Source: Clostridia bacterium (GTDB lineage: Bacteria > Bacillota > Clostridia > Christensenellales > Borkfalkiaceae). From it: 47,031 bases of DNA. Shown in pieces: positions 24,845 through 42,688 of the stretch (position 1 is the stretch's first letter; each line of letters opens with the position of its first letter). A program made the translations under genes and the position numbers. Below the pieces are notes generated by a model, which was given only the letters and a program-made list of their open reading frames with translations, did no database searches and was not told the origin of the DNA. The DNA lies in the NCBI GenBank assembly GCA_017886895.1, contig JAGHJD010000003.1, positions 1 to 47,031 on the forward strand, given 5' to 3'.

Positions 24845-24892
24845 CGGTTTTTATATAAATATAATTGTACGGTAAATTTATTTTTAAAGAGT

Positions 24893-24931
24893 AAAGTCTG
24901 CGGCAGATATAAGATTCGCCGCAGGCTTTTT
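24893..24931 (+). terminator. Terminator of the dehydratase-activase operon
   Basis: AGTCTGCGGC (24895-24904) pairs with GCCGCAGGCT (24918-24927, one G-T wobble) and is followed by TTTT. The remaining ~120 bp up to the next promoter are AT-rich and show no gene. Confidence 0.85.
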
Positions 24932-25053
24932 ATGTGTAAAATTATTCCAATTAAATTTATTTTGAAAGCATATAATTTCACGGGATGTTTTTACAAAATT
25001 ATCAAATAGCTTTCACAATATAAAAAAATTAAACATTTTTTTCACACATTTTA

Positions 25054-25082
25054 TTGTCAGCGGCGGGAATGTATGTTATAAT
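25054..25082 (+). promoter_or_regulatory. Sigma-A promoter of locus 2
   Basis: TTGTCA (25054-25059), 17 bp, TATAAT (25077-25082). It predicts a leader of about 140 nt before the first gene at 25228; no ORF was recognised in the leader. Confidence 0.8.
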
Positions 25083-25160
25083 AAAAAAGTCAGAGTATGG
25101 AGTATCTTGGGGAATTTTACCCTTTTGTAAACAGTGTTATATACAGCGATCTGTCCTAAA

Positions 25161-25177
25161 GTTGATTTCCAATCAAC
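25161..25177 (+). promoter_or_regulatory. Small perfect hairpin in the locus 2 leader
   Basis: GTTGATT (25161-25167), TCC loop, AATCAAC (25171-25177). As DNA it is also a dyad that could be an operator; the last gene of the operon encodes an HTH protein. The role is unproven. Confidence 0.4.
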
Positions 25178-25227
25178 CCACGGGATTGAAAATTTTGTTA
25201 TTATAGAAAAAACAGGAGGAGGTTTCT

Positions 25228-25848
25228 ATGGCAAAACGGCAAAAGACGATCCGCTCCCATCGGGAGAGGGTCCGACGGGCGAATTATGTGCTGAAGGAGG
25301 ACCCATATTTCAAAAAAGAGCGGCTCTCGATCCTGGACAGGGAAGCTCTGGTTGAATTCTATCTGGTCGAGGATATTCTTCAGCTGTATCAAAAACGATT
25401 GGCATCTGAGCAGGCGTACGAACCTCATGGGCGTGCCGCTGAAAAGGCAAAGGCCTTGAATATAAAAAAATTTACGGCGATCATTAACGTTTTGGATGCG
25501 GCAATCGGCGTGGCGCGGGCGGCTATCAAGGCCGGCGACTATACCAAAGTCCGTCGTGCGATCCATGAGGGCGCCCTGATGGCTGCGGCAAACAGCGTCA
25601 AAAATCTCCCCAAACTGAGAGAGTTGGCGATTGAACTGCTGCGCGACCTTTCAGCCGATACGCTGGCTGCAGAGAGCGAAAGTCTGGCAATTGATGAAGA
25701 TCTAGATGATCTGGAATCCCATGAAGAGAACGTCCGCAAAGTAAAAGGGATGGCTCCCTCTGTCGATCAGATCGAAGAGATCATCCGTGCGGCTGAAGAG
25801 GCTATTCCCGATAAAATCACAAAGAGCAAACTGAACACCAACATTTGA
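25228..25848 (+). CDS. Helical, basic-to-acidic protein, ESCRT-III-like candidate, copy A (locus 2)
   Basis: Length is 206 aa, first gene of locus 2, with SD aggaggagg. The N terminus is strongly basic (MAKRQKTIRSHRERVRRANY). Long Ala-rich helices follow, including FTAIINVLDAAIGVARAAIK and a K-N-L-P-K-L-R-E-L segment. Then come an acidic stretch (SLAIDEDLDDLESHEEN, ~150-167) and a C-terminal helix with IEEIIRAAEEAIP. Size, charge polarity, helicity and position before a Vps4-like ATPase suggest an ESCRT-III-like filament subunit, but sequence similarity is weaker than for the next gene. It could be an unrelated helical adaptor. Confidence 0.65.
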   Translation: MAKRQKTIRSHRERVRRANYVLKEDPYFKKERLSILDREALVEFYLVEDILQLYQKRLASEQAYEPHGRAAEKAKALNIKKFTAIINVLDAAIGVARAAIKAGDYTKVRRAIHEGALMAAANSVKNLPKLRELAIELLRDLSADTLAAESESLAIDEDLDDLESHEENVRKVKGMAPSVDQIEEIIRAAEEAIPDKITKSKLNTNI

Positions 25849-25956
25849 CGCACCTGCGGGTGCTTGCGGGCACTGTTTTAGCGGAGCTGTTTCGCTGTAT
25901 CGTATCAGAAAATTCAGGTGCATGCCTGAAAATATAAAATTTCGGAGGAAAAAATC

Positions 25957-26565
25957 ATGGCAAAAAAGCAGACGAACGAGGAGAGGATCGTGGCGGCAAT
26001 GGACGCATTGGACAAATCCGTGCGCAACCTTCAGAAATTCGGCATCTGCTACAACGACTACATTGACGAGGCTGCGCTGCGCGGAGACGACGGGAGAGCG
26101 AAACAGCTCATCAAACAGAAAATGCGCGTCTGCGCTCTGGCAGAGCAGTTGAAAACGTTGAAGAGCAACCTTGAACTCGGTGCTTACACTTCACAGGCTA
26201 TCTCAGACCTCGGCAAGCTTCCCGCCGCGATCGCGGGGTGCAAGGGGCTTCTGGCTGAATCGCCTGACTTCTCCAAGTTGGGGAAGAGCATTACTGCGAT
26301 CTTCAGGGATATCTCCTCGTCCGAAGCGGAGCTTGCAAAGCTGAACGAGATCCTTGATCCCAAACCCGCGGTGAGGCTGGGCAGTGCGCTGGACAGTATT
26401 CCTGAGGAGGAACAGACCGATGCCTTCAAAGCGGAATATGCGGCGATGTGGGAGCGCATTAAGCCGCGGCTTTCCCCGGAAACGGTCGCAAAACCCGATG
26501 CAGCGGTTGAGCCAACAGGCAATATCGACTATGCCGGTATCATTGCCGAAGAGAATAGGAAGTAG
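25957..26565 (+). CDS. ESCRT-III/CHMP-like protein, copy B (locus 2)
   Basis: Length is 202 aa, with SD cggagga. The helical pattern follows Vps2/CHMP proteins well. Helix 1 ends near ICYNDYIDEAAL. A G-D-x-x-x-AKQLIKQKMRV helix 2 start is followed by LAEQLKTLKSNLELGAYTSQ, like the '...L.nLE.....A' of ESCRT-III. Then come ISDLGKLPAAIAGCKGLL, DFSKLGKSITAIFRDI and SSSEAELAKLNEIL. The tail is Pro/Ala/Glu-rich and ends in a short conserved-looking peptide (NIDYAGIIAEENRK) that may be the ligand for the MIT-like domains encoded next. The 108-nt gap before it contains a TTCAGG/CCTGAA hairpin (25913-25930). Function is inferred from architecture and neighbours. Confidence 0.75.
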   Translation: MAKKQTNEERIVAAMDALDKSVRNLQKFGICYNDYIDEAALRGDDGRAKQLIKQKMRVCALAEQLKTLKSNLELGAYTSQAISDLGKLPAAIAGCKGLLAESPDFSKLGKSITAIFRDISSSEAELAKLNEILDPKPAVRLGSALDSIPEEEQTDAFKAEYAAMWERIKPRLSPETVAKPDAAVEPTGNIDYAGIIAEENRK

Positions 26566-26573
26566 GGTGAATC

Positions 26574-27734
26574 ATGGCAGCGGCGAACATGGTGAGCGTT
26601 TTCAATGGGAAGGTGGCGCGATTCAATGAGGCAGTCCGTGTGAAGGATGCAGACGCGATCGCAGAAATCGGCGCCGAGATGCTGCGCATTGCTTTGGAAC
26701 AATGCGCAAACCCCAATCTCAGTACTACGGTGAAACAGACGTACCGCAAGCAGTGCGCTGCCGTAATCGATCATCTCGTCAGCTATGTGAAACAGCCGCC
26801 CGTGGCGGTCAGGAGCGCGGGCGGCGGCGAAGAGGAGAGCGACCCGTACTATACGGAGAGGGATTGGTTTTCCGACGACGTTCCCAAACTCAACTTCAAA
26901 GACATTATCGGCGTTCAGGAAGTGAAAGACGCCTTCATGGTCGACGTGGTCGCTCCGCTGAGACCGGAGTTCAAAGAGGTCTACCATAAATTCCGCGGCG
27001 ATCAGCTCGGGACGCAGGTTCTGCTCTACGGCCCTCCCGGAACAGGGAAAACCCATGTCGTAAAGTGCCTTGCGGGAGCCTTGAACTGTAAAATCGCTGT
27101 CGTGCAGACGAGTGAGCTTTTGGCGAGCGTCGTGGGCGTGGCAGAAAAGAACACGCGCGACATTTTCGCGCAGGCTGCTGAGCTGGAGCGGTGCATCATC
27201 TTCCTCGACGAGATCGACAGCATCTGCTCGGACCGGAGCAGCGAAGATTCCCGGCATACGCGGTCCGTTCTTACGACGATGCTCACCTGCATGGACGGCT
27301 TTATCAAGACGAAAAAGCCTGGGCAGCTCAGGATCGTTGTGGCGGCGACCAATCTGCCGTGGAAACTCGATCCCGCTTTGAAACGCGGGGGGAGGTTCGA
27401 GACGCAGATCTACGTTCCTCTCCCCGATTGGGAGGCAAGGAAGGTCTTCGTGGCGCAAGGGCTTGAAAAAGTGCCGCACGCGGCGGACGTCACGGTGGAC
27501 TACCTGGCACAGCGTTTGGACGGCTATGCGGGTGCGGATATCAGGGCGGTGCTCAAACAGATCGCCAACGAGCCTTTGCGCCGCGAGATCCTCAATATTA
27601 TCAAAAATAAAAAAGAGAGCGGAGAGTTCATAACCGTTGCCGACTGTGAAAAAGTTTTACAGTCCTATATCAACAGTGTGACGCCCGAAATGTTAAAACG
27701 CTTTCAGGCCTATGACAGGGGAATCCCCTATTAG
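26574..27734 (+). CDS. Vps4-like AAA ATPase with N-terminal MIT-like domain (locus 2)
   Basis: Length is 386 aa. Residues ~5-75 are a MIT-like helical domain (VSVFNGKVARFNEAVRVKD, AEIGAEMLRIALEQ, YRKQCAAVIDHLVSYV), followed by a Gly/Glu linker. The AAA core has Walker A GPPGTGKT at 153-160 and Walker B FLDEID from about 210. It carries AATNLPWKLDPALKRGGRF and the Vps4-like VPLPDWEARK and GYAGADIRAVLKQ. Its C terminus is VTPEMLKRFQAYDRGIPY, like the Vps4 end. Pore loop 1 reads LLASVVGVAEK and so lacks the aromatic KW seen in Vps4 and in the locus 1 paralog. The ATG follows gggtga, 8 nt after the previous stop. Probably remodels the ESCRT-III-like proteins encoded upstream. Confidence 0.9.
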   Translation: MAAANMVSVFNGKVARFNEAVRVKDADAIAEIGAEMLRIALEQCANPNLSTTVKQTYRKQCAAVIDHLVSYVKQPPVAVRSAGGGEEESDPYYTERDWFSDDVPKLNFKDIIGVQEVKDAFMVDVVAPLRPEFKEVYHKFRGDQLGTQVLLYGPPGTGKTHVVKCLAGALNCKIAVVQTSELLASVVGVAEKNTRDIFAQAAELERCIIFLDEIDSICSDRSSEDSRHTRSVLTTMLTCMDGFIKTKKPGQLRIVVAATNLPWKLDPALKRGGRFETQIYVPLPDWEARKVFVAQGLEKVPHAADVTVDYLAQRLDGYAGADIRAVLKQIANEPLRREILNIIKNKKESGEFITVADCEKVLQSYINSVTPEMLKRFQAYDRGIPY

Positions 27735-27763
27735 GCGTTGTGTGTGGGCTCAAAGGAGTGAGT

Positions 27764-28783
27764 ATGGAAAGTAAAGACCGGATCGCAACCTACTATGCCA
27801 ATGCACGGGAATTTGTCAAGCAGGACAGACCGCGGGAGGCGAGGGCTTACGTGCTCGCCATTCTGAACAACGCGCTCGAAAGCTATAAAAGAGCAACTTC
27901 GATCCTGTTGCAGGCAAAGACGGCTGCATTTATGGATCGGTGGATCGCCGTTTCCCGCGACCTCTATGAAAAAGGGGTGACCGATTACGTTCTGCAATGT
28001 TTCGGACTGCCGACGAGTGCGGAGCGAGACCTGCCGAAAGTGCGGCGCGGTCCCGCCAAACCGCGTGCGGCGGAGCCCGATGCCCCGCAGCCCGTTGACC
28101 CGGAACAGGAAGGCGGAGTAATCGATATCAGCGGGTTAATCGCTGAATCGGCAAAGATGCAGGGTTGGTGTGCGGAAATTTTTGAAAAGAGCAGGGCGGC
28201 GGTCGTTGAAATAACTGTTTCCGGTCCCGACGGATCGGCAAGCGGAACAGGTTTTGTGATCTCGAAAAACGGTTACATTCTCACGAACGATCATGTCGTC
28301 TATTGTGAGACCGCGGAGGGATATTATCCAAAAGCAAAAATTTCCTTTTCCGGGGACAAGAAGAGCTACGATCTGCAGATCTTGTTTTCCGATAAAAAGG
28401 CGGACGTCGCTCTGTGCAAGTTCGATCCCGAAAAAGTTGGCAGTTTTTCCGTGATCAAACGGGTGAGGGAGTATTCGCAGGTCTTGCAGGGGGCTGATTG
28501 CCTCATTATCGGCAACGCCTTTGGCATGGGGCTTGCGCCGTTTACAGGCGTTGTCCGCTTTACGAAGAACGATAACGGTGACCTCGTGTACACTGCGCCC
28601 TCCAACCCCGGCGATTCGGGCGGACCCGTTTTGAACCGAAACGGCGAGTGCATCGGGATCAATAAATCCAAGACGCTGACCGTGAACAATCAGTCGGCAG
28701 ACGGATACGCGAATGCGACCCCGATGGATACGATCGACGCGCTGCTGAAAAAGTGGTGCGAGAGTAACCAAATTCAGTTGTGA
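27764..28783 (+). CDS. Trypsin-like serine protease with N-terminal MIT-like domain
   Basis: Length is 339 aa from ATG 27764, which has SD aaaggag; the frame also opens at GTG 27740, but that lies before the SD. Residues ~1-82 are a MIT-like helical domain (RIATYYANAREFVKQ, ARAYVLAILNNALESYKRAT, a third helix around DLYEKGV). A Pro/Ala linker follows, then a chymotrypsin-fold domain with an intact triad: His177 in TNDHVV, Asp214 in KKADVALCKF, Ser285 in NPGDSGGPV. There is no signal peptide, TM helix or PDZ domain, so it is cytosolic and unlike HtrA/DegP. It is probably recruited to the filament or its targets by the MIT-like domain; the substrate is unknown. Confidence 0.88.
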   Translation: MESKDRIATYYANAREFVKQDRPREARAYVLAILNNALESYKRATSILLQAKTAAFMDRWIAVSRDLYEKGVTDYVLQCFGLPTSAERDLPKVRRGPAKPRAAEPDAPQPVDPEQEGGVIDISGLIAESAKMQGWCAEIFEKSRAAVVEITVSGPDGSASGTGFVISKNGYILTNDHVVYCETAEGYYPKAKISFSGDKKSYDLQILFSDKKADVALCKFDPEKVGSFSVIKRVREYSQVLQGADCLIIGNAFGMGLAPFTGVVRFTKNDNGDLVYTAPSNPGDSGGPVLNRNGECIGINKSKTLTVNNQSADGYANATPMDTIDALLKKWCESNQIQL

Positions 28784-28792
28784 GGTATTTTT

Positions 28793-30349
28793 ATGACTTT
28801 TGCGGATAAGTTCAGGGAACGCTACAGGACCGCGTTGCACGCGGCAAGGGCAAACGACCAAGATGCGACGCTTACAGGGCTTGCGGAGCTGTACCGGCTC
28901 TTTGCGGAACAGTATTCGCTGCAAAACGGCGACAGCATCGTGACCAAGGCACAGCTTTCGTACTGGCAGGATGTCTTCGGCGGCTACATTGATCTGATCC
29001 GCAAAAACGGTTTGCAGGACAGGCGTGTGCGGAAATTTTTCGGGCTGATCGAGGACGATTCGGCGCCCTCCTTTTCGGATATTTTGCGCGGCGATGCCCT
29101 GCCTGCGGCGGAGGCGGGGTCGGGCAGCGCGCTTGGAGCGGGCGACGGCCTCGGCGGCTTTTCTGATGTTCAGTCCCCGACGGAGCCGCCCTTTGGCGCA
29201 AAGCGCGCTGTGGGCGATGATGCAGGCGACCCTTCGGGGGGAGATACGGAGGAGATCATCCCTGTTGTTCCGCCCGCAACAGAGGGACTTGTACCGGATC
29301 TCCCGCCTGAGACGGGGATACAGAGCCCTGTTGCGCCCGTCGGGTCTGTCGGCGGCACAGGCGGCGGCGAGGACAAGCCCATCTTCGATCCGGATACGTT
29401 GGACGGTTTCATCGGGCAGCAGCATATCGTGAAAGTTCTGAAAAAGGAGATCGCGATCGCGAACGCGGAGGGCAGAAGATACCTCGATAACATTCTGCTT
29501 TTCGGAAATCCGGGGCTGGGCAAGTCGACGCTCATGCGGCTTGTGGCAAAGGCGCTCGGCGTTCGGTTTGAGTGGATGGATTGCTCGCAGTACCGCAACA
29601 GCAAGCAGTCGCTGAAGGCACTGCAGAACTTTCTTTTGAAAGTGGCGAGGGAGAATGAACCTGTCGTGATCGCCTTCGATGAGATCCACATGCTCACGGA
29701 AGATCTGCAATCCAGTCTGCTGACCTTGCTCAACAGCCGCGTCTATGTCTCGCCGCCCGACATCAACGGAGTAGTCAAGCGGATCCCGATCGAGCAGTTC
29801 ACGTTCATTGGTGCGACGACCGACGACGACAAAGTGATCGGGACGCTCAAGGACAGGTGCCTGCGCCTGACGTTCCAGATGAAGGATTACACGCAGGAGG
29901 AGTTGAAACGTATCTATCGGAATAAAGTTGCGTCCAAGGGGCTTACGATCACCGACGATGCGATCGAAACGTGCATTCCGCGCAGCCGCGGCTCGATCCG
30001 CTATGTGAACGCTTTCGTCGAGGGGTTGGATAAAGCGCTGTACGACGATGAGGGGCACCGTGTGTCTACGAATATCGATCTGGACGTCGCGAAACGGTAT
30101 TTTGCAGAGAAGGGCATCGATGAGATCGGGCTGAGCGAGAAAGATCTCGAGATCCTGCGTGAGATCCCCGCCGAGGAGAACGGTGCGATCAGCGCGGAGT
30201 CTCTTGCCGCGCGCGTCGGGCTGGACCCTAAAAAATACCTCTCCGAGTACGAGCCGTATTTGGATAAGATCAAGTTTCTCACCAAGAGCAACCGCGGCAG
30301 ATCTCTTACAGAAGCCGCCATCAATTACCTGAAGAGCAAGGAGGAATAA
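28793..30349 (+). CDS. RuvB-like AAA ATPase with N-terminal MIT-like domain
   Basis: Length is 518 aa. The N-terminal ~85 residues are a helical MIT-like domain (FADKFRERYRTALHAARAND, AELYRLFAEQYSL, WQDVFGGYIDLIRKNGL). A long Gly/Pro/Ala/Glu linker spans ~90-195. A RuvB-type motor follows: FIGQQHIVKVL, Walker A GNPGLGKST (238-246), Walker B AFDEIH, sensor FIGATT and arginine finger LKDRC. The C terminus has the RuvB winged-helix pattern (EILREIPAEENG...; YEPYLDKIKFLTKSNRGR). It is not the housekeeping Holliday-junction helicase: there is no ruvA neighbour and it has an extra domain. It starts 10 nt after the protease gene with gaggt. Function unknown; the MIT-like domain suggests recruitment to the ESCRT-III-like polymer. 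Confidence 0.88.
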   Translation: MTFADKFRERYRTALHAARANDQDATLTGLAELYRLFAEQYSLQNGDSIVTKAQLSYWQDVFGGYIDLIRKNGLQDRRVRKFFGLIEDDSAPSFSDILRGDALPAAEAGSGSALGAGDGLGGFSDVQSPTEPPFGAKRAVGDDAGDPSGGDTEEIIPVVPPATEGLVPDLPPETGIQSPVAPVGSVGGTGGGEDKPIFDPDTLDGFIGQQHIVKVLKKEIAIANAEGRRYLDNILLFGNPGLGKSTLMRLVAKALGVRFEWMDCSQYRNSKQSLKALQNFLLKVARENEPVVIAFDEIHMLTEDLQSSLLTLLNSRVYVSPPDINGVVKRIPIEQFTFIGATTDDDKVIGTLKDRCLRLTFQMKDYTQEELKRIYRNKVASKGLTITDDAIETCIPRSRGSIRYVNAFVEGLDKALYDDEGHRVSTNIDLDVAKRYFAEKGIDEIGLSEKDLEILREIPAEENGAISAESLAARVGLDPKKYLSEYEPYLDKIKFLTKSNRGRSLTEAAINYLKSKEE

Positions 30350-30378
30350 GGAGGAATGAGGAATAAGGAGGAATGAGG
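30345..30378 (+). repeat. Tandem 17-bp duplication carrying Shine-Dalgarno sequences
   Basis: aataaggaggaatgagg occurs twice back to back (30345-30361, 30362-30378), spanning the stop of the RuvB-like gene and the SD of the next. Each copy carries an aaggagg core; the copy nearest ATG 30381 supplies the ribosome site. Confidence 0.85.
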
Positions 30379-30380
30379 AG

Positions 30381-31574
30381 ATGACTTTAGGCGAAGCGAT
30401 TGAGTTTTTGCAAGGAGTACAGGAGAAAGTAAGCACAAATACCGATCTAAACAGTGCAATTGAGTCTTTAAAGAATGCGGCTGACATTGTCGAAGATGAG
30501 TACTCTCTAAGAGAGCAGATTGCTACTGCAAAAGAGCTTGATAAATGTATTCAGACAGGCAAGGACCGTGCATATAATTCTACCGCATCTGAAAAAGGGA
30601 AGAAGTTTAATAGATGGGCACAGACGTTGTATGGGTGTGTTATAAACTTTCATAATGCGCTGAGAGAAGCAGCAACAAGGGATATTTCTGGAAATTGCAA
30701 TAACAAAGAGAGTTGTAGTATACTAGATCAAAGAAAAGATGTAAAACAAATATGGGAAGGGGATGGGGAAACTTTTACACACTGGACGGAGGTTGTTGTC
30801 GCTCTTTTTGTGATGGTGCTCCTCATTTTTCTTGTGTTTTCACCATCAATATTCAAGACAGATAGCGGCGATGTAAATTATGATAAATTTTCATTTTATG
30901 TACAGATAGGAGAGGCGGTTATTATTCTTGCTATAGAGATTGTATTTTTATATGTTAATCATTTTCGAAAAAAGAATTCTGCGCGCATGAGGTTGGTTCC
31001 AGCAGTAGCAATGCCTGATGAATCAGTGGATTTGTCACAAGTAGAGAGCGTCTGTTTGTTCTGTGGAGAGAAAAATAGTGTGAACGCAGAGGATAAAAAG
31101 TCCCATAAGTGCACGCGCTGCGGTAATCCCATTTATGTAACGGCTGACGACCAAGAAAAGGATGTTCAAGAGTGGAGAGAAACTCATACGGCAACTTTAG
31201 AGCGACTATCCTCATCAAAATATGAGGCACCATATAATATTTACTTACCGAGTGACACAAGTAACGGGATATTGTTTATTCCGAAAGTGGCGAATAAATC
31301 TAAGAAAATAGAAAAAATAGGATGGATTAGGTTTTATGAAAACAGCAAGTTGACTCAGAAGAATGTCAGCAATGATCAGTCTAATCAAGATGTTAACAAC
31401 ATGCTCTCGAAATTAAAATATATTTATGTGCCTGAAGACATTGAGTTAACTGATGAATTTTATAATATTTTCAAAGATAAAGGGTGGGGATGTGAAATTG
31501 TAAAATTTAAGTCCGATGAAAATGGAAAAATAAAATTGCAAGAAAGTCAAGAGGTTGGCAATGATAAAAAATAA
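30381..31574 (+). CDS. Two-TM protein with cytoplasmic zinc ribbon (locus 2)
   Basis: Length is 397 aa, notably AT-rich. An N-terminal ~130-residue helical domain (AIEFLQGVQEKVST; LNSAIESLKNAADIV) precedes two TM helices (VVVALFVMVLLIFLVFSPSI and QIGEAVIILAIEIVFLYV). A zinc ribbon follows (CLFC and CTRC, about residues 229-252), then a ~145-residue C-terminal domain with no motif I recognise. The two TMs form a hairpin that leaves both large domains on the same, probably cytoplasmic, side. Its end overlaps the next start by 14 nt. It may tether the machinery to the membrane (inference). Confidence 0.8.
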   Translation: MTLGEAIEFLQGVQEKVSTNTDLNSAIESLKNAADIVEDEYSLREQIATAKELDKCIQTGKDRAYNSTASEKGKKFNRWAQTLYGCVINFHNALREAATRDISGNCNNKESCSILDQRKDVKQIWEGDGETFTHWTEVVVALFVMVLLIFLVFSPSIFKTDSGDVNYDKFSFYVQIGEAVIILAIEIVFLYVNHFRKKNSARMRLVPAVAMPDESVDLSQVESVCLFCGEKNSVNAEDKKSHKCTRCGNPIYVTADDQEKDVQEWRETHTATLERLSSSKYEAPYNIYLPSDTSNGILFIPKVANKSKKIEKIGWIRFYENSKLTQKNVSNDQSNQDVNNMLSKLKYIYVPEDIELTDEFYNIFKDKGWGCEIVKFKSDENGKIKLQESQEVGNDKK

Positions 31575-33600
31575 AAAACTGCTGCTTTTTCTGTTCCTCA
31601 TTCTCTTGTTCACTGCTATGGCAGCGCTTTTGGGGATGTCGGGGTTTTTTGCATATGCCGCCGAGGGCGAGGATACCGCAAGGTCCTTCGTTGAGGTGAG
31701 CGGCGAAGGGATCACGGAGGAAAATACCTATTATCTGGAGTGGTCCTCTTTGGAGGTGACGTATGACGGGGAGCCGCATGCGCCCTCTGCCGTGCTGAAA
31801 TGTCAGGAAGATGCGGCGTTTGAACTGCAAGCCGCTATATCCGTTTCAAAAGAAGGCGAACCCGTGACTGCTGTAGCTGCCGACGACTATGTAGCAGTTG
31901 CAAGTTGTGAAGGCGTAACTTTCACAAGCGGGAACGAAAACACTTTCACGATTTCGCCCCGTCAGGTGGTTGTGCAGTGGAATATTGCGGAGACCTATAT
32001 CTATGACGGGTCAATGCAGGGTCCCACGGCAAGTTATATAAATGTACGGGATGAGACTGTCACCCTCAATAGTACAGGGGCGGCATCGAATGCGGGGGTG
32101 CATACCGCGAGCGTAGCTGCAGATGCCGCGGGCAGCAATTATATTTTAACAATTCTGACATGCGAGTACACGATCTTGCCGCTGCAGGTCACGGTGCAGT
32201 GGAACACGGCAGCGCAGTATACCTTTAACGGATCATCGCAAGGTCCTGTTGCAAGATATTCTAATATTTACGGCGAAAACATTGTCCTCAATGCGGACGG
32301 ATATGCAGCGGACGCAGGAGAGCATATTGCGAGTGTCGCCTCAAATGCTGCGGGCAGCAATTATCTGCTGACGAATCTGACGTGCGAATATACGCTCGCG
32401 CCTTTACAGACGGCCGTGCAGTGGAGCGTAGCAGAGAGTTACACTTTTAACGGTTCGCCGCAAGGCCCTGCAGCGAGCTATCAGAATATAGATCATGATG
32501 CGGTCCTTCTCCCTGTAAGCGGGCGGGGAACGGATGCGGGGACATATACCGTAAGCGTTGCCGCGGACGCCGCGGGCGGCAACTATGAGCTGACAAATCT
32601 GACGCAGGAATATTCGATCGGCAAACTGAGCGCAGCGGTGCAGTGGGTGACGTTTGATTTTGTGGAAAACGGCGAGGTGCAGGCACCGCGGGCGTTTGTC
32701 GCGGGGCTGGGCGGAGAAATCATCGAACTGCCTGTCGTTGCCTCGGGGAGAAGTGCGGGCGACTATACGGCGCGGGTCGATGCGGATGCTGCGGATACAA
32801 ATTTTGTTTTGAGCGGGGAGCTTTCTGCCGCCTATACGATAGCTCCAAAGGCGGCTTTCGGCACGGCGGGGACCATATTTTGCATTATCCTTGGCGTTTG
32901 TTTTGCCGTGGCGATTGTTTGGATCGTTTTGTTGCTGTTGAAAAACAAGACTGCGAATCCTGTGGCTCGGGCTCGTCGCGAGTCCGAGCAGGGTGCTCGG
33001 TTCAAAAAACAGATGCAGGAGAAAGATGCTGTTCATCGTCAATTGCAAGAGCGCGTGAAAAAGATAGAGGCAGCTTATAGCCAAGAGCAAACAAAAGCGC
33101 AAAAAACAGAGGTCGCTTACCGTCAATTGCAAGAGCTTATGAAAAAGGCGAAGGCGGAGAATCGTCAATTGCAAGAGCACGCGGCAAAGGCGGAGGCGGA
33201 TTACGGAAAATTGCAAGAAAATTTGCAGGAGACAGGGGCTGCCTGTCTGCATTTTGAAAAACGCAGCGAGCAACTGACCGCCGAAAAGGGACAGCTTGAA
33301 GGACTTGTTACGGAATTAACCGCCGAAAAGGAACAGTTTGAAGAACGTATTGCCAAATCCGATGCCGAAAAAGAAAAGCTTGTTGAGGAGAGGGACGATC
33401 TGCAGAAGGCGTTGCGCCTTGTATCCGGAAGCGGCTATCCGCTTGAAGTTTACTTGCCGGAGATCAAAGCAGCCCTTGAAGAGGCGGAGACCATAAAATA
33501 TGACGGCAGTTCGCCGGAATTCAGTTTTCAATTGCAGAGGCAGCAGTTCAGCAAGCTTGCAAGAATTTTAAGCAGATATAAAAACCAAAGAGGAGAATAA
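31561..33600 (+). CDS. Surface-repeat protein with one TM and long cytoplasmic coiled coil
   Basis: About 679 aa from ATG 31561 (MIKNKKLLLFLFLILLFTAM); an in-frame TTG at 31555 is possible. It begins with a signal peptide, cleaved probably after FFAYA. Four or more tandem ~80-residue β-rich repeats follow, with the recurring pattern VQW...YTFNGSxQGPxA...N...AGxHTASVAADAAGSNY...L, resembling MBG/YDG-type extracellular bacterial repeats. A TM helix is at about 440-462 (FCIILGVCFAVAIVWIVLLL). About 170 residues of Glu/Lys/Gln heptad coiled coil (RQLQE recurs several times) and a short C-terminal domain follow. It could sense or bind something outside and transmit it to cytoplasmic coiled-coil partners (inference). 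Confidence 0.82.
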   Translation: MIKNKKLLLFLFLILLFTAMAALLGMSGFFAYAAEGEDTARSFVEVSGEGITEENTYYLEWSSLEVTYDGEPHAPSAVLKCQEDAAFELQAAISVSKEGEPVTAVAADDYVAVASCEGVTFTSGNENTFTISPRQVVVQWNIAETYIYDGSMQGPTASYINVRDETVTLNSTGAASNAGVHTASVAADAAGSNYILTILTCEYTILPLQVTVQWNTAAQYTFNGSSQGPVARYSNIYGENIVLNADGYAADAGEHIASVASNAAGSNYLLTNLTCEYTLAPLQTAVQWSVAESYTFNGSPQGPAASYQNIDHDAVLLPVSGRGTDAGTYTVSVAADAAGGNYELTNLTQEYSIGKLSAAVQWVTFDFVENGEVQAPRAFVAGLGGEIIELPVVASGRSAGDYTARVDADAADTNFVLSGELSAAYTIAPKAAFGTAGTIFCIILGVCFAVAIVWIVLLLLKNKTANPVARARRESEQGARFKKQMQEKDAVHRQLQERVKKIEAAYSQEQTKAQKTEVAYRQLQELMKKAKAENRQLQEHAAKAEADYGKLQENLQETGAACLHFEKRSEQLTAEKGQLEGLVTELTAEKEQFEERIAKSDAEKEKLVEERDDLQKALRLVSGSGYPLEVYLPEIKAALEEAETIKYDGSSPEFSFQLQRQQFSKLARILSRYKNQRGE

Positions 33601-33604
33601 AGGC

Positions 33605-35488
33605 ATGGAAGAGAGTAAAGGCATAGATGAAGGATGGTATCTCGGGATAGATTTCGGGACAAGCAATACATATCTCGTCGGCTATTATTCTTGGGGTAGT
33701 GGGAAGGGGAAACTCTATCCGACGGAACTTATGCATTCGAATATCGCCGATGTAGATAGGGGAATTCCGACGGTCATTACGCGGTTAAATAAGGTGAAAC
33801 TCCTCGGAAGAAATGAGGTGATATATTATATCGGGAAAGAAGCGATAGAGAAAGCGACGAAGAATAAATTAAATAAGTGTGTGGATCTGAAACAAAAGGC
33901 GAGAAAACTAGATCCGTGCAGCGATACGTTGAACGAGTCGATCGTTTTTAAGAAAGGTGAGAAAGGTGTCTCGCGGGATGAGGTTTTGCAAGCGTTTTTT
34001 TCAGTTTTGATCCAAAAAGCGAACGAAGAAATAAGTAAGAAAAATGAACCTGGTTATGATCCGTTACCGCTACCGCAAATTACGGAGACAACAATAAAGA
34101 GTATCGTGATTGGATGTCCGAATTCAGAAGGGAAGGCAATCGAATTAAATGATAGTGGTTCTGGGGGAAAAGTGACGGTCGACTATGGTTCTGTTCTTCA
34201 AAATGCGCTTGCGGCGTGTATTACAGAGGAGGCAAATAAAGAAGCCCTGAAGAGGAAAATTAAGGTTGTTCCGGAAGCTGTGCTTGCGGGCATTGCTTAT
34301 TTATATAACAGCAAGAAGGATGATGTGGTTTTGGTGGTGGATTCCGGCGGCGGGACTACCGATTTTGCACTGCTTTATTGGAAAGGGGATGAGATTCAAA
34401 ATGATTTTATTGGTGAGGGTTGTGATTTTGCGGGAAATGAAATTGATAGGACAATATATAAAAAATTATTTTTAGAAGAGGGAACTTCCAATGACAAGGG
34501 CGAAGACAGTGAAATGATGGATAAGGTGCGTGAGGCAAAAGAACATATCTTTCGGGATGATAAGGGCGACCCCAGAGAGGGTGAAGAGTTGGGGAAAGCC
34601 AGTCATTTATTTGAAATTAATAATGCTAAACGCGTTCTTCATTACAACAAAGATGAGAAGAGACTATATGAACAATCAAATGATCAAGAAGAGATTGTAA
34701 GAATTGGCGAGGAAGAGGTTTATAAAAAAATTTGTGAGAAGTTATCTGAAGATCTAAAACTGATAAAGGCTACGATCAATACTATATTTTTTGTGGGCGG
34801 AACGTCATATATTTTGCCGCTGCGTTTGGAAATTTCCTCCTTGGTGCAGAGTCAGCAGGGAGAAGAAAAAGATAAGTCCTCAAAGAAGTTCTCAAATAAG
34901 GTAAGTGTGAGAACGCCTTTTGGTACGTATACACCGATTTCCATTTCCTCTTTTGTGCAAAATACGAAAAGAGAAGAAACGGGGAATAGGATATTTTTTG
35001 ACCGGGAGCATAAAATTACTTGTTTTAATGCTGTGGCAATCGGTGCGTGTATTCGGGCACTCGGAACAAAGATAGTTTCCTGCCCTAAAATTGAGCTTGC
35101 GTGTGAAACAGATGAAGAGCCGGCATGGGTGACGATCTACGATCCGCAACAGGAGAGCGTGCGTACAGCACTCGTGGATACGGTAGATGTCTGTGCAGCG
35201 TTTGCAAATAAAAATGATATATCCTTATATTATCGTTCGGATATACCAATGAAATTTCGTATTCGCATCAATGGGAAACTTATGGAGGATGTTATCCGGG
35301 TCAATAAAAAGGTGATGAAAGACATATTGTCTGATAGCGGAAAAGACCTTGTTATAAATTTTTCGTTGACGGGAAGTGGTACATTAGTTTGTACAACAGG
35401 TATGGGGACGATAGAGAAAGAGCGAAAAGGGTATTATGTAAAAGATAAGATAAAGACGTTTGGTTCTCCGTTAGAAGTTAAGTTGTAG
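33605..35488 (+). CDS. Hsp70-like (DnaK-family) ATPase, divergent
   Basis: Length is 627 aa, cytoplasmic, AT-rich. The actin/Hsp70 ATPase fold is clear: phosphate-1 YLGIDFGTSNTYLVGYY at residue ~13, phosphate-2 VVLVVDSGGGTTDFALLYW at ~240, the GEGCDFAGNEIDRTIYKKLF segment, and the adenosine motif INTIFFVGGTSYILPLRLEI. The C-terminal ~220 residues are β-rich and do not show a canonical DnaK substrate-binding domain or EEVD-like tail. No DnaJ or GrpE gene is nearby. It is 5 nt downstream of the surface/coiled-coil gene. It is likely an operon-specific chaperone or a filament-type ASKHA protein. Confidence 0.87.
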   Translation: MEESKGIDEGWYLGIDFGTSNTYLVGYYSWGSGKGKLYPTELMHSNIADVDRGIPTVITRLNKVKLLGRNEVIYYIGKEAIEKATKNKLNKCVDLKQKARKLDPCSDTLNESIVFKKGEKGVSRDEVLQAFFSVLIQKANEEISKKNEPGYDPLPLPQITETTIKSIVIGCPNSEGKAIELNDSGSGGKVTVDYGSVLQNALAACITEEANKEALKRKIKVVPEAVLAGIAYLYNSKKDDVVLVVDSGGGTTDFALLYWKGDEIQNDFIGEGCDFAGNEIDRTIYKKLFLEEGTSNDKGEDSEMMDKVREAKEHIFRDDKGDPREGEELGKASHLFEINNAKRVLHYNKDEKRLYEQSNDQEEIVRIGEEEVYKKICEKLSEDLKLIKATINTIFFVGGTSYILPLRLEISSLVQSQQGEEKDKSSKKFSNKVSVRTPFGTYTPISISSFVQNTKREETGNRIFFDREHKITCFNAVAIGACIRALGTKIVSCPKIELACETDEEPAWVTIYDPQQESVRTALVDTVDVCAAFANKNDISLYYRSDIPMKFRIRINGKLMEDVIRVNKKVMKDILSDSGKDLVINFSLTGSGTLVCTTGMGTIEKERKGYYVKDKIKTFGSPLEVKL

Positions 35489-35540
35489 ACTAATTGTGTT
35501 GTGAGTAACCAGCACTTAAAGAAATCCGGGAGAAAGTAAA

Positions 35541-36482
35541 ATGAAAGCAATAAGGTTACCCAAGAATCCAAAGGTATATATAAAAGAGATAGATACTCTA
35601 CAAAAGGAAAATAAAACCTTAGAAAACGAAAGTGCAACGTTAACAGAAGATAATGAACGGCTAAAGGGACTAGAAAAGACGATTGAGACATTAAAGAGCG
35701 AAAATCGGATGCTAAAAAGTGGAAATATACTACAAAGAGAAAAAATATTACAGGAAGTAGCCGCTACAGACCCTGTGCAAAACGAGAGAAATGCAAAGCT
35801 AAAAGAGGAAAACGTCGGTCTAAAAAAAGAAAATACAGAGCTGAAAGCGGAAAATAACAGTCTAAAAAAAGCAAATGAAGAGCAGAAAAAAGGAATGGCG
35901 GAAAAAGCTGATAGAGCAGATCTCGTTGCTTTAAGGCTCAGACTTGAAAACCTGCAAAGATTTGCCGAAAGCGGTGAGTTTGAAACCAAAACAAGTTATA
36001 TTACTAAATATCATAACTTTAGTACCTGTTTGTTTCTCTGTGCTATATTGCTCTTCAATATTTTTGCGATTTGGTTTATCGCCTGCAAACCTGCTGTCTC
36101 CGGGGCAACGGGGATAAGAGAACTGCCGTGGATGTTTTTGCTGTTTCTATGCGCGACCCTTGCTGTAAATATAGTGTGGGCGATCATTGTGTCATATCGG
36201 GCTGTTCGTGCCGGAAAACAGCGGGCATGGGTCGGTATCAGCGCGGCAATTGTCTTACTTGTGCTCAACATGGTTGCAGTTTGGCTGTTTGCGTTCCACC
36301 CTGTAGAATTAACGGCGGCAGTATATGCTTTGCTGGTCTTTCTGATGGTGGCAAACATAGCGGAGGGCGCAGCGGCGATCTTTTACAGTTATGGCAATGA
36401 GAACGGATATGTCCCGAGCATATTTACTTTTATTGCGTTGCTTCCTGTCCTGATTATTTTTATCGGCTGGATCAGGGCGTGA
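35541..36482 (+). CDS. Coiled coil plus five-TM membrane protein, copy A
   Basis: Length is 313 aa. The first ~145 residues are a long heptad coiled coil rich in Glu, Lys, Asn and Leu (DTLQKENKTLENESATL; LKEENVGLKKENTELK). Five TM helices follow, from LFLCAILLFNIFAIWFIA to FIALLPVLIIFIGWI. The TM part is paralogous to the next gene (compare CAILLFNIFAIWFI with CAIFLFNILALFFI, and LPWMFLLFL with LSWTFLLPL). The coiled coil may pair with that of the upstream surface protein. No enzymatic motif. SD gggagaaag. Confidence 0.8.
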   Translation: MKAIRLPKNPKVYIKEIDTLQKENKTLENESATLTEDNERLKGLEKTIETLKSENRMLKSGNILQREKILQEVAATDPVQNERNAKLKEENVGLKKENTELKAENNSLKKANEEQKKGMAEKADRADLVALRLRLENLQRFAESGEFETKTSYITKYHNFSTCLFLCAILLFNIFAIWFIACKPAVSGATGIRELPWMFLLFLCATLAVNIVWAIIVSYRAVRAGKQRAWVGISAAIVLLVLNMVAVWLFAFHPVELTAAVYALLVFLMVANIAEGAAAIFYSYGNENGYVPSIFTFIALLPVLIIFIGWIRA

Positions 36483-36519
36483 TAAAATTTTTGTGTAAGG
36501 GAAACACGAGAGGTGAGGT

Positions 36520-37131
36520 ATGGAGAAAGGAATCGAAAGTGAATTGTCAAACAAAGCAGATATCGAAGAGCTTAAGAGATTGGAAACTGAAATCGAAAAG
36601 CTGGAAAAAGCGTTGCCGTCAAGTATTGAAGAAACATATTGTAGTATCGGTAAAGCACTGTATGAAGATGAAACGAGTCAAAAACTCAATGTCTATCTGA
36701 TCATCTGTGCGATTTTTCTTTTTAATATATTGGCATTGTTTTTTATTGTGTTGAGTCCGGTACTCTCTGCACCGCGTGACCTTGAAACATTGTCATGGAC
36801 GTTTTTACTCCCTCTGCTTGTTATTATGATCGTAAACATAGGCTCTACGATCGTGTTCTGCTATCAGACGTTTGATAAGGATGGAATGGGCAGAACGATC
36901 TTCTCGCATTGTGCCGCTGTTATTTTGCTGATCGCCGATACGATCGGCATATGGTTCGCCTCGATCTATGACAATCAATTTTTTGTAACATGTTTAGCAG
37001 CAGGATATTTGGGAATACTTGTAGATATTTTGAATTATGAAGTTGAAGAGGAACACAGTGTTTTATTTAATATTCTTATTTTAGTTTCAGCGGCAATGTA
37101 TTTCGTGGATTTAGCAATATTTGGTGTGTAA
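36520..37131 (+). CDS. Short coiled coil plus five-TM membrane protein, copy B
   Basis: Length is 203 aa. A ~45-residue charged N-terminal helix (ELKRLETEIEKLEKALPSSI) precedes five TM segments (LIICAIFLFNILALFFIVL through ILVSAAMYFVDLAIFG). The membrane part is a diverged duplicate of the previous gene's, but the coiled coil is far shorter. SD gagaggtgagg sits directly before the ATG. Probably arose by tandem duplication and works with its neighbour in the membrane. Confidence 0.78.
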   Translation: MEKGIESELSNKADIEELKRLETEIEKLEKALPSSIEETYCSIGKALYEDETSQKLNVYLIICAIFLFNILALFFIVLSPVLSAPRDLETLSWTFLLPLLVIMIVNIGSTIVFCYQTFDKDGMGRTIFSHCAAVILLIADTIGIWFASIYDNQFFVTCLAAGYLGILVDILNYEVEEEHSVLFNILILVSAAMYFVDLAIFGV

Positions 37132-37136
37132 AGTCT

Positions 37137-38033
37137 ATGGAAATTTTCATTACGGACAAGTTGGCGGGAAATGTTTCGGCAGAGGCGCTCTGCGTTTTGA
37201 AAAAGGCAGAGGACGATAGCCTGATGTTCACCGTACAGCGCTTACGGGGTGACGGCAAAGAGCAAACAGCCATCAATGTATGCGGAGAGGATGCGGCGGA
37301 GCAGGCGGCACTGGCATTGGCAGCGTATTGTGCGGATAAACAGGTGCACGTTCTCGCGCTTGACGTTCCCTCTTTTTCCGGTATGTTTTGCGCCTTTTCT
37401 TACTTATGCAGTTGCGTCTGCGATGCTTTGGTTGAGCAGGAGTTTGTTGAGCGCATTTTCTTTGCCGGCATTCCGGTAAATCCTGATTTAACGGCAAGGC
37501 TTGAGAAACATCTTGCGCGCCCGATAATTGTAACAGTAAGGCTTGAGAAACATCTTGCGCGCCCGATAATTGTAACAGAAAATCATGTATTTGGGGATCT
37601 CGGGAACGAACTGAAAGAAAAGTTTGAAAGGTTTGCGGCAGCGAACAGCGGGCAGCCGTTTAACCAGTATCTTGTTCAACTGATGTATCAGAAAGGATGT
37701 GTCGATTCTCCGTCGGTATATAAGGCTGCGGGCATTTCAAAATATACTTTTTCTAAAATAATGAATTATAAACGCAATCATAAGCCATCAAAGGAAACGG
37801 TGGCGGCGCTGACGATTGGTTTAAAGTTGAACATTAAAGAGGCGGAAGAATTGTATCATGCGGCGGGGTATCATTTGGGAACAGGTGATTTCGTTGATAA
37901 AGTCATACGCTTTTTTATCAGCGAAAAGCTCTATGATATCGATGAAGTAAATATATGCCTCAGTCAATACGGGCATCCGCCGTTGGGTGAGAAGTTACGG
38001 GATACAAAAATTACAATGGATATGGATGAATAA
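37137..38033 (+). CDS. HTH protein with the C-terminal module found on Firmicute macro-domain proteins
   Basis: Length is 298 aa. The N-terminal ~115 residues form an α/β domain I do not recognise. The C-terminal ~120 residues (SGQPFNQYLVQLMYQKG; AAGISKYTFSKIMNYKRNHK; PSKETVAALTIGLKL; AAGYHLGTGDFVDKVI; FFISEKLYDIDEVN) match the helical, Xre-like module that in many Firmicutes follows a macro (ADP-ribose-binding) domain. The N-terminal part may therefore be a diverged macro-like or replaced domain. An in-frame 42-bp tandem duplication doubles VRLEKHLARPIIVT near residue 125. Last gene before the locus 2 terminator; candidate autoregulator (inference). Confidence 0.78.
   Translation: MEIFITDKLAGNVSAEALCVLKKAEDDSLMFTVQRLRGDGKEQTAINVCGEDAAEQAALALAAYCADKQVHVLALDVPSFSGMFCAFSYLCSCVCDALVEQEFVERIFFAGIPVNPDLTARLEKHLARPIIVTVRLEKHLARPIIVTENHVFGDLGNELKEKFERFAAANSGQPFNQYLVQLMYQKGCVDSPSVYKAAGISKYTFSKIMNYKRNHKPSKETVAALTIGLKLNIKEAEELYHAAGYHLGTGDFVDKVIRFFISEKLYDIDEVNICLSQYGHPPLGEKLRDTKITMDMDE
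37496..37579 (+). repeat. In-frame 42-bp tandem duplication
   Basis: 37496-37537 and 37538-37579 are identical at 41 of 42 positions, adding exactly 14 codons to the HTH-protein gene without a frameshift. The near identity indicates a recent event. Confidence 0.95.
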
Positions 38034-38080
38034 GCAGGTGGCTTTGCAAAGTTGATTGCAAAGCCACCTGCTTATTTTAT
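38029..38080 (+). terminator. Terminator of locus 2
   Basis: A perfect 21-bp stem (38029-38049 / 38056-38076, arm AATAAGCAGGTGGCTTTGCAA) with a six-base loop, followed by TTATT. The stop codon of the HTH gene lies inside the 5' arm, so the operon ends sharply here. Confidence 0.92.
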
Positions 38081-38188
38081 TGTAGCAGTATAATGCTTAT
38101 ATACATAATCGGCTGTTTATCTTGTAGTTTATAAGCACTGAAAAGTCTGCTATAAAACAGGAGAGTAACGGAACGCGAGGAGAAAAAT

Positions 38189-38503
38189 ATGGTATCCAAA
38201 ACGGAAAGGAAAAGAAGCAAAAACGATCTTATGGATTTACTGTTTTGCGAGGACACTGCCGGGTTCGTTCTTGTAAATGAAAAAGGGCAGGAACTTGCTT
38301 TCAGGCAGGTCTATGCTACGATAAAAGACGGCACTGTCTATTGTATATTAGTGCCTGCCGAAAAAATATATTCGCTGCCTCACGACGGAGCGTTGCCGTT
38401 CGTGCTTTCAAAGGAACAAACTTTGACTGTGGTGCAGGACAGGCAACTCGCCGGGCAGATCTTTGCGGAATACTATCGCAAAGTAAAAAGAGAGGGTGAA
38501 TAG
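38189..38503 (+). CDS. Small DUF1292-like protein
   Basis: Length is 104 aa. A charged N terminus (MVSKTERKRSKNDLM) precedes an all-β-looking core (GFVLVNEKGQELAFRQVYAT; DGTVYCILVPAEK) resembling DUF1292 proteins, whose function is unknown, and a C-terminal helix (AGQIFAEYYRKVKRE). It lies 2 nt upstream of the large ClpB/FtsH-like fusion with SD cgaggag, so the two are co-translated and may interact. The 155-bp gap before it holds a TATAAT at 38089 without a convincing -35. Confidence 0.7.
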   Translation: MVSKTERKRSKNDLMDLLFCEDTAGFVLVNEKGQELAFRQVYATIKDGTVYCILVPAEKIYSLPHDGALPFVLSKEQTLTVVQDRQLAGQIFAEYYRKVKREGE

Positions 38504-38505
38504 GT

Positions 38506-41382: not shown

Positions 41383-41392
41383 GGAGGTCGGT

Positions 41393-42688
41393 ATGGATAA
41401 CATAACCGTTGGATTGCTGTTAACAAAACTGAACATGGGGATACATCGCTTTGCGCTCTCCGAACTTTCAGAATTTGAAGACGACTCGTCCTCTTACAAC
41501 GCAAAGCGCGAAGTGGCGGAACTTTTGCGTGAGGGGTTTATCTATGCCGACGGACATAAGAGCTATATCATTGACGTTGACCTCTACACGCTCCGTAAGC
41601 ATTATTTGCGCAGCTTTTCAAAGGAGAGAGAGCCTGCGGATGTGGATATAAAGTGCCGCTTTGACAGATGCGATATTATAAATTCGGTGTGGCACGTCAA
41701 AGACGTATCCGCAATGACTGAGGACGATAGAGATGTATTTGAGAGTGTGGAAGAAACCGATTGTTGCTCGCGGGAGTATTTAGACAGACGGCGGCGTTGG
41801 GTCCGGCAATATTCGCCAAAAACTGATGATGACGACGATGATGAAGATGACAATGAGGAGGATGAGGATAGTGATTTGAATCGTCGCCGTCGGGAATATC
41901 TGGAGAAAAGAAGACGCGAACTGATAGCCGAACTGCAGGAGAAGGCAAACACGGAAAATGAAACCGATGAAGAGGATGAGGATGATGAGGATGATACCGA
42001 GAGCGGGGACGGCGAAAACAGTGAATATGACGGGTTGGACGGAGAGCTGTATATGGACGAAACATCTGAGACGGAGGAGAGCGGGGAAGAGTTGCGTAAA
42101 AGGCTGTGTGCTCTTCTTTGTGAAGGCGGGATCAGGGGTGAAACGATGGTTCCCGCACTGCAGCTATGTGCAAGTAAGGGATACGTTTCATCACAGCTAT
42201 TACAGAGCAATATGAATATCAAAGGTTATTTTGCCGATTATGTATGTTTTTGGCTATGGAAAAATCACTTCACGAAGAGGGATGTGCGGGATGACGAAAA
42301 ATACGTTTTGAATATGCCTGTAAGTCAATTTTTATCTTGTTGCCGTGAAACGGAAGAACGTAAGAAATCCATTGAGAGTCTTGCCATTGTTCTGAAAAAT
42401 ATTGGCGCGAAAAAGGAGAGAGGGGAGGAGCGAAAGCAGACGATACTACAGCGGTATGCGGAAGATTTCAGATATGGAAAAATCGTGCGGGAAAAAATTT
42501 TAAAACTTTTGCGCGATGAGCCGACGATGACCAGAACAAAAGCGATAGCCAAGGCGGAAGGTTGCCTGTTTGCAGCTCGTGAAATGGACAGGGCAATTAC
42601 GGCAGAGACTTATGAAAAGGTGATTTCGGCATTAAAAGGGATGAGTAATTATAAATTTAATCGTCTCAAAGGTGAAGTGAAAGAATGA
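41393..42688 (+). CDS. Highly acidic multidomain protein, unknown function
   Basis: Length is 431 aa, 10 nt after the protease gene with SD aaggaggt. An N-terminal ~110 residues resemble a winged-helix-like fold (LLTKLNMGIHRFALSELSEF). Two polyacidic runs at about residues 143-163 and 190-215 flank a basic coil (LNRRRREYLEKRRRELIAEL). At ~255-290, MVPALQLCASKGYVSSQLLQ resembles the FtsK gamma/winged-helix type of DNA-binding segment. The C-terminal helical region has a repeated Arg/Lys-rich pattern. The acidic runs could serve as a disordered linker or nucleic-acid mimic. Not recognised as a family; neighbours suggest it is a partner or substrate adaptor of the protease. Confidence 0.75.
   Translation: MDNITVGLLLTKLNMGIHRFALSELSEFEDDSSSYNAKREVAELLREGFIYADGHKSYIIDVDLYTLRKHYLRSFSKEREPADVDIKCRFDRCDIINSVWHVKDVSAMTEDDRDVFESVEETDCCSREYLDRRRRWVRQYSPKTDDDDDDEDDNEEDEDSDLNRRRREYLEKRRRELIAELQEKANTENETDEEDEDDEDDTESGDGENSEYDGLDGELYMDETSETEESGEELRKRLCALLCEGGIRGETMVPALQLCASKGYVSSQLLQSNMNIKGYFADYVCFWLWKNHFTKRDVRDDEKYVLNMPVSQFLSCCRETEERKKSIESLAIVLKNIGAKKERGEERKQTILQRYAEDFRYGKIVREKILKLLRDEPTMTRTKAIAKAEGCLFAAREMDRAITAETYEKVISALKGMSNYKFNRLKGEVKE

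Follow-up and report, generated by a model that had tools for sequence, protein, structure and literature searches.

A mobile ESCRT-III-based gene set of gut bacteria that appears to dock motors and a protease

The DNA analyzed here, called the window throughout, is a stretch of 47,031 nucleotides from a Clostridia bacterium (contig 48 of a draft genome of 1.63 Mb, 81% complete; JAGHJD010000003.1, assembly GCA_017886895.1), and our subject is a run of eleven open reading frames (ORFs), all on one strand, that spans 25228 to 38033 (locus 2). The run carries a mobile, ESCRT-III-based gene set of gut bacteria that appears to dock motors and a protease and looks like a membrane-based alarm or defense device. 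Gene order, protein families, co-inheritance, a shared domain, a shared peptide, a gene fusion and a patchy distribution were observed directly. The fusion, together with the shared domain and peptide, provides the strongest evidence that the proteins act as one machine.

The five-gene core

Five genes, in the order A1-A2-B-C-D, form the core of the set:

25228..25848, + strand: A1, first core gene, a helical protein with a conserved C-terminal helix (model pLDDT 84.6)
25957..26565, + strand: A2, an ESCRT-III/Snf7-family subunit (Pfam Snf7 in relatives; Foldseek)
26574..27734, + strand: B, a Vps4-like AAA ATPase with an MIT-like N-domain (Pfam AAA, 1.2e-36; N-domain by profile match)
27740..28783, likely start ATG 27764, + strand: C, a trypsin-like serine protease with a putative N-terminal docking domain (Pfam Trypsin_2, 2.1e-19)
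28793..30349, + strand: D, a RuvB-family AAA motor with a putative N-terminal docking domain of the C type (Pfam RuvB_N, 1.6e-16; RuvB_C, 1.1e-12)

Relatives were sought with two peptide patterns from B in one genome per species, which makes the resulting counts lower bounds. Eighty loci were kept from 114 relatives, 34 at 44–78% identity and the rest at 34% or less. These 34 related loci (L numbers), two of which (L100 and L103) sit in one metagenome-assembled genome, make up with the window the set of 35 used below; nine loci were also read in longer stretches. Carriers are labeled Clostridia, Bacilli, Mollicutes, Anaeroplasma, Acholeplasmatales, Oscillospiraceae and Ca. Alloclostridium, plus one bin labeled Alphaproteobacteria. 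By the identity of B, the loci divide into type I (62–78%; 23 loci and the window; support 100/100 in the tree of B) and type II (44–48%; 11 loci).

All five core genes are present in one order in 26 of the 35 loci (25 relatives and the window), and inserted cassettes often separate D from the rest. Four of the nine misses arise from contig ends (L080, L081 and L089 stop before D; L095 starts within the core) and another is a matter of threshold, A1 of L103 being found only at a looser cut-off. The others are real or partly real exceptions: L107 is without A1, L074/L108 without C and L110 without both, its D possibly lying beyond its end, and in L097 B is the sole core gene, beside J, FtsK-like and TIR/leucine-rich repeat (LRR) genes. 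L097:1-7742 is possibly a decayed or minimal locus. The first-pass annotation had raised the question of whether these genes would prove scattered or individually replaceable in homologous loci; the core largely holds together, whereas genes E to I, described below, are swapped. In most relatives other genes replace E to I, and the idea that all eleven products form one fixed complex is not supported.

A search with D in 396 genomes of the order returned clear orthologues in ten, the source genome included (E 2.1e-77 or better; G000, G276, G482, G466, G260, G138, G336, G326, G238 and G125), and an additional hybrid in G314. Some match occurred in 250 of the 396, the lower-listed ones resembling ordinary RuvB at ~30% identity over the RuvB part only. 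For the core genes, dN/dS was 0.036–0.175 in 27 comparisons, in many of which dS exceeds 1, and six further comparisons were saturated; judging from these sequences, the core is under purifying selection.

Another locus of the window, locus 1 (10265-15743), encodes SPFH, transmembrane (TM), two ESCRT-III-like (by eye), TIR-TPR and Vps4 proteins. The run had been proposed to be a different system, and this is supported: it has the protease and the RuvB-like motor and is conserved as a unit.

Pfam agrees with the earlier naming of Vps4-like, trypsin-like, RuvB-like and Hsp70-like proteins (AAA, Trypsin_2, RuvB_N/RuvB_C and HSP70). Among relatives of B, Walker A is retained in 34/34, Walker B in 33/34 and RGGRF in 34/34. 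Two-ATPase proteins (p97/Cdc48) lead the best 60 PDB matches of B and Vps4 (5uie, 3.2e-47) comes last. The Vps4_C helix was not among the 25 families listed (of 33) for B, and a family missing from such a Pfam list of aligned relatives is not thereby excluded; the locus-1 Vps4 has Vps4_C at 3e-5. The catalytic His/Asp/Ser pattern of C is found in all 22 type-I relatives examined, and GDSGAP variants retain the catalytic serine.

By sequence and predicted model, A2 is a member of the ESCRT-III/Snf7 family. Pfam Snf7 is matched by 22 of 33 A2 relatives (E up to 1; best 1.3e-7), and two of ten scored members pass the curated cut-off of 27.3 bits (L087, 31.8; L101, 28.2). A2 of the window matches weakly (8.5e-3; 16.2 bits, below the cut-off), and four type-II members scanned gave no Snf7 match at 0.05. 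The predicted A2 model is a long helical hairpin, as in the ESCRT-III core, and its best 18 Foldseek matches in the PDB are all ESCRT-III, CdvB or PspA chains, several per entry (E 0.05–0.44, best 0.054). Sequence-profile searches of A1 and A2 against PDB sequences returned no ESCRT-III match, and the PspA model was absent from the Pfam matches of both (up to E 1). By hhalign, A2 aligned weakly with the two ESCRT-like families of locus 1 (0.029 and 0.18), as did these two with each other (0.11); the locus-1 proteins themselves had no Pfam Snf7 match at E 0.1.

The model of A1 is helical and confident and gives no clear support for ESCRT-III. No ESCRT-III chain was among its top 50 Foldseek matches in the PDB, Snf7 was not among the 25 Pfam families listed (of 70) for its relatives, and hhalign gave no match to locus 1 or to A2 (0.59, 0.33 and 0.33). 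Five of the 34 related loci have two A1-like genes. The earlier proposal of two ESCRT-III-like proteins thus stands for the product of the gene at 25957 and lacks support for that at 25228.

A putative docking domain, a shared peptide and a fusion

Both C and D begin with a domain of ~90 residues, and the two domains belong to a single family (hhalign E 1.9e-15, probability 98.5). The N-domain of the locus-1 Vps4 matches those of both C (9.1e-6, probability 83) and B (1.9e-5, probability 78); unrelated helical control families gave 0.53, 0.23 and 0.59. Direct comparisons were weak (B-C, 0.0086; B-D, 0.0055; D-locus 1, 0.0062). One locus-1 Vps4 relative matches Pfam MIT weakly (0.025) and others match TPR models. 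Pfam recognized neither the docking domains of C and D nor the N-domain of B, MIT was not among the 22 families listed for 25 B members, and PDB profile searches with the N-domains of C and B returned designed, TPR or other helical proteins.

A peptide of nine residues, IDxxG[LI][IV]xE, is found both in the tail of A2 and in the linker of C:

26524..26550, + strand: tail peptide IDYAGIIAE in A2 (window sequence)
28121..28147, + strand: linker peptide IDISGLIAE in C (window sequence)

The strict form occurs in 20 of 33 A2 and 20 of 32 C proteins (shuffle means 0.015 and 0) and in 2 of 29 D proteins; it was found in none of 35 A1, 34 B and 126 non-core proteins encoded downstream of B. In type I, a looser form is present in 21/22 A2 tails, 22/22 C linkers and 9/19 D linkers (shuffling all D linkers gave a mean of 0.49); it is absent from all type-II A2, C and D examined. 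The window itself has the peptide in A2 and C and none in D. To our knowledge, the peptide matches no MIT-interacting motif.

In L076, a hybrid that mixes locus-1 and locus-2 genes, a single ORF (L076:8966-10633, - strand) fuses an ESCRT-III-like domain to a RuvB-like motor. Residues 2-185 resemble the locus-1 protein e2 (32% identical, E 4e-26) and residues 183-548 the RuvB-like motor (36% identical, E 2e-63), both E values being for one-sequence comparisons. The fusion adjoins genes for an SPFH-like protein, a second ESCRT-III-like protein, an AAA protein whose N terminus is MIT-like by eye, and a trypsin-like protease.

Island, cassettes and downstream module

The remaining features of the run and its surroundings are as follows:

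24845..44600, no strand: low-GC island holding the system, right edge approximate (GC shift and conserved left neighbor)
25054..25082, + strand: promoter-like site TTGTCA-17-TATAAT with extended -10 (TG before the second hexamer), 11/12 consensus bases
30381..31574, + strand: E, a two-TM protein with zinc-ribbon-like cysteines, cassette (hydropathy scan; cysteines read in the sequence)
31555..33600, + strand: F, N-terminal hydrophobic segment, extracellular-type repeats, one TM segment and coiled coil, cassette (hydropathy; repeats by eye)
33605..35488, + strand: G, an Hsp70-like ATPase, cassette (Pfam HSP70, 6.5e-5)
35541..36482, + strand: H, coiled coil and five hydrophobic segments, cassette (hydropathy scan)
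36520..37131, + strand: I, an H-like membrane protein with five hydrophobic segments, cassette (hydropathy scan)
37137..38033, + strand: J, a conserved putative helix-turn-helix (HTH) regulator (family in 11/35 loci, window included)
38029..38076, + strand: intrinsic terminator-like stem of 20 pairs (stem scan)
38189..38503, + strand: K, a small protein at the head of the downstream module (K-like gene in relatives)
38506..41382, + strand: L, AAA_2 (ClpA-like), AAA and M41 peptidase (FtsH-like) (Pfam)
41393..42688, + strand: M, a protein without Pfam match, at the place of an FtsK-family gene in L068 (position analogy only)

The first-pass annotation described an eleven-gene run from promoter to terminator, which the same-strand ORFs, the promoter-like site and the 20-pair stem bear out. 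Of the 41 such matches in 24800-42800, counting both strands (shuffle mean 23.3), the promoter-like site is the best. The stem is the longest among 15 terminator-like matches, a count not above chance (shuffle mean 17.5).

In all likelihood the run belongs to an acquired island that extends beyond the terminator and takes in 38189-42688. We place it in such an island because of four observations: the drop in GC, the conserved left neighbor, the rarity of C and the differing genes that follow the left neighbor in other genomes. GC is 0.60–0.69 to the left of the run and 0.39–0.58 from ~25.5 to 45 kb. The island begins directly after the gene at 23540-24844, which 37 of 40 genus genomes retain, the source genome included, while C is found in one of the 40, the source genome itself (E 1e-45). 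In 20 genus stretches other genes follow the left neighbor; four stretches stop within about 1.2 kb of it. Searches of these 20 for K, M and glutamine synthetase found no match, and there was one distant AAA match only. A clean empty site was not obtained, the right-hand neighbor lying on other contigs or at other places in the genomes checked. Genes past the terminator are equally low in GC, and genes resembling K and L are found repeatedly next to the system; the unit is therefore probably larger than the eleven genes first taken as the whole. At the right end of the island, 42761-44192 encodes an ASCH-domain protein and a metallophosphatase.

Eight of the 35 loci have phage-type integrase genes, which lie upstream of A1 in seven. 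Among the matches listed from phage, plasmid and IMG/VR collections there were just AAA matches, at 36.3% identity or below.

The TM segments first read in this region are all present: two in the zinc-ribbon protein, a hydrophobic N terminus and one TM segment in the product of 31555, and five segments each in those of 35541 and 36520. The E-F-G-H cassette type of the window recurs as F-G-H in L101 and L070, one L070 gene matching both H and I, and Hsp70-like genes are present in other loci too. Elsewhere the cassettes comprise TIR and BspA-type LRR proteins, small TM proteins, DO-GTPase-like proteins and Hsp70s. Proteins of L067 and L070 combine Pfam LRR_5 with TIR_2 (0.00077 and 0.00027, below the curated score). 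L073 has a DO-GTPase2 match just under the Pfam cut-off (5.3e-6), with similar genes in L091 and L092 (phmmer); Pfam found no GAP1 partner of DO-GTPases among the ten proteins scanned. J was first called an HTH protein; it has no Pfam match, but it does belong to a conserved family. A relative of J lies beside a locus-1-type Vps4 gene at L024:1915-2715, so this regulator family is common to both systems.

Part of the loci have a second module near the core, made up of K, ClpP or an FtsH/Clp-like protein, SLR, and a type IV coupling protein (T4CP) or FtsK. In L (AAA, 2.1e-50; AAA_2, 1e-33; Peptidase_M41, 3.5e-30) the window has a protein whose close relative adjoins the core in L068 and whose place is taken by ClpP in 8 of the 35 loci. 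A K-like gene lies between J and the ClpP or FtsH-like gene in L068, L069 and L071. Per 35 loci, not all of whose stretches are long enough to reach the module, we counted ClpP in 8, T4CP in 8, FtsK in 5, Clp/FtsH-like proteins in 3 and K in 5.

Possible function and relation to known systems

In the reading that we favor, with confidence about evenly balanced, the set is a mobile system of membrane surveillance or of the defense type, whose ESCRT-III scaffold recruits the protease and motors; polymerization, binding partners, activation and defense are what we infer. A2, probably with A1, would polymerize at the membrane and serve as a recruitment platform, and B would disassemble or remodel the polymer. 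C and D would be drawn to the platform by the MIT-like docking domain that both have at the N terminus. The short peptide shared with the A2 tail may also recruit C and, likewise, about half of the type-I D proteins. Assembly of the polymer would concentrate and switch on protease and motor, giving a threshold-gated form of surveillance in which C may be activated by crowding or by D/B remodeling. The interchangeable membrane, TIR, LRR, DO-GTPase or Hsp70 cassettes would sense or execute, and the J regulator and the AAA-protease/DNA-pump module would join in part of the loci. We hold somewhat more tentatively that this amounts to a bacterial, mobile form of ESCRT-III/MIT interactome logic, in which tail peptide and docking domains gather an ATPase, a protease and a second AAA motor into an immune platform with swapped cassettes.

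The defense reading follows from the patchiness and mobility of the set and from its cassette types (TIR and DO-GTPase), which give the earlier suggestion of a defensive role a possible link to biological conflict. DO-GTPases are members of published conflict systems (PMC7159879), and bacterial antiviral systems repeatedly pair a trypsin-like protease with a nuclease (PMC12799240). Repair of membranes is the competing role, and both are roles that we infer. The set could act in envelope stress in the manner of phage shock protein (PSP) systems, with A2 and B patching the membrane, the protease, Hsp70, ClpP/FtsH and RuvB-like motor clearing damaged proteins, and the cassettes serving as stress sensors. 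Both ESCRT-III and PspA serve in membrane repair (PMC8281802), there are published PSP loci that contain AAA+ ATPases and Band-7 proteins (PMC11237479), and Hsp70-like genes and Clp/FtsH proteases do lie beside the core in part of the loci. We nevertheless consider this explanation unlikely, given the strong patchiness (one of 40 genus genomes), the TIR and DO-GTPase cassettes and the lack of a PspA model in the Pfam scan of A1 and A2.

Still less probable is that the set belongs to an integrative element, its platform handling DNA or protein transfer with a T4CP/VirD4-like or FtsK-like pump, SLR and ClpP, and its RuvB-like motor working on DNA. The T4CP-like (8/35), FtsK-like (5/35) and integrase (8/35) genes fit such a role, but the pump module, missing from many stretches, flanks the core now on one side, now on the other, neither integrase nor pump was found in window positions 20001-47031, and the Pfam scans named only the coupling protein among conjugation genes, no search having been aimed at the others. 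A housekeeping-like device for division or intracellular membranes in certain gut bacteria, one that just happens to vary in its presence, would recall the action of ESCRT-III and Vps4 in archaeal cell division (PMC10017037). It is very improbable for a set that is missing from nearly all close relatives searched, sits in a low-GC island and swaps its cassettes.

A surveillance or defense platform of the kind that we favor has partial counterparts. IetAS, which we take to be an anti-phage system without ESCRT-III, RuvB or docking domains, likewise joins an AAA ATPase to a serine protease. It is through its AAA domain that B matches IetA models (best 3.3e-34), and no IetS model was among the PADLOC matches of C. 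For ten proteins, seven of them from the window, PADLOC gave generic or weak matches only and no complete known system.

Locus 1 resembles locus 2 in its ESCRT-III-like genes (by eye), a Vps4 with an MIT-like N-domain, a TIR protein and, often, a trypsin-like gene. Unlike locus 2, it has an SPFH protein and no RuvB-like motor was seen in it; its Vps4 is 36% identical to B. Loci of its kind occur across the family, a Vps4-like match (E 1e-40 or better) being present in 16 of 121 family genomes, the source genome included, and the stretches of 9 of 15 Vps4-like loci outside the window contain a trypsin-like gene.

Eukaryotic and Asgard ESCRT-III systems likewise combine ESCRT-III with a Vps4-like ATPase, and in them a protease and additional AAA motors bear an MIT-type domain (SPASTIN, KATNA1, CAPN7); ESCRT-III tails recruit the human MIT enzymes, the protease CAPN7 and AAA motors among them (PMC9477494). 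The present set differs in being bacterial, patchy and island-borne, in having a trypsin-like protease instead of a calpain and in drawing its second AAA protein from the RuvB family. Its putative C/D docking domain, moreover, is not called MIT by Pfam.

PSP systems (PspA/Snf7) belong to the same superfamily and have published AAA+ and Band-7 partners, but A1 and A2 match no PspA model. In the available text of the PSP survey, bacterial Vps4-like AAA genes with snf7 displaced are mentioned, no core of Vps4-like, trypsin-like and RuvB-like proteins is described, and the word "trypsin" is absent (PMC11237479). The DO-GTPase-GAP1 and MoxR-vWA conflict systems (Kaur 2020, PMC7159879) resemble our set in their swappable effector cassettes and in their TM/zinc-ribbon, Hsp70 and DO-GTPase-like partners. 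The main text of that paper is without ESCRT, Snf7, Vps4 or RuvB; in our loci no MoxR-vWA core was recognized, and Pfam detected no GAP1 among the ten proteins scanned.

The superfamilies concerned are known. A platform that brings them together, with protease and motor docked and cassettes swapped, is not described in the open-licence PMC literature searched, where we also found no description of this locus; this is not proof of absence. If the reading is correct, ESCRT-III and Vps4, beyond their part in archaeal and eukaryotic division, budding and repair and in bacterial stress proteins of the PspA type, would also lie at the heart of a mobile platform of several enzymes carried by gut Clostridia, Bacilli and Mollicutes-type bacteria. 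Such a platform would be a bacterial counterpart of the MIT-domain enzymes and would bear on the origin and spread of ESCRT recruitment logic. The tail peptide, docking domains and fusion offer a directly testable set of interactions.

Two further observations concern genes near related cores. In the type-II locus L107, a Clp/FtsH-like AAA gene lies downstream of the core (L107:12248-15235) and an Hsp70-like gene upstream (L107:477-1907). Near a type-I core, L098:16148-19237 encodes a ResIII/DEAD helicase of 1029 residues, possibly a neighboring defense gene.

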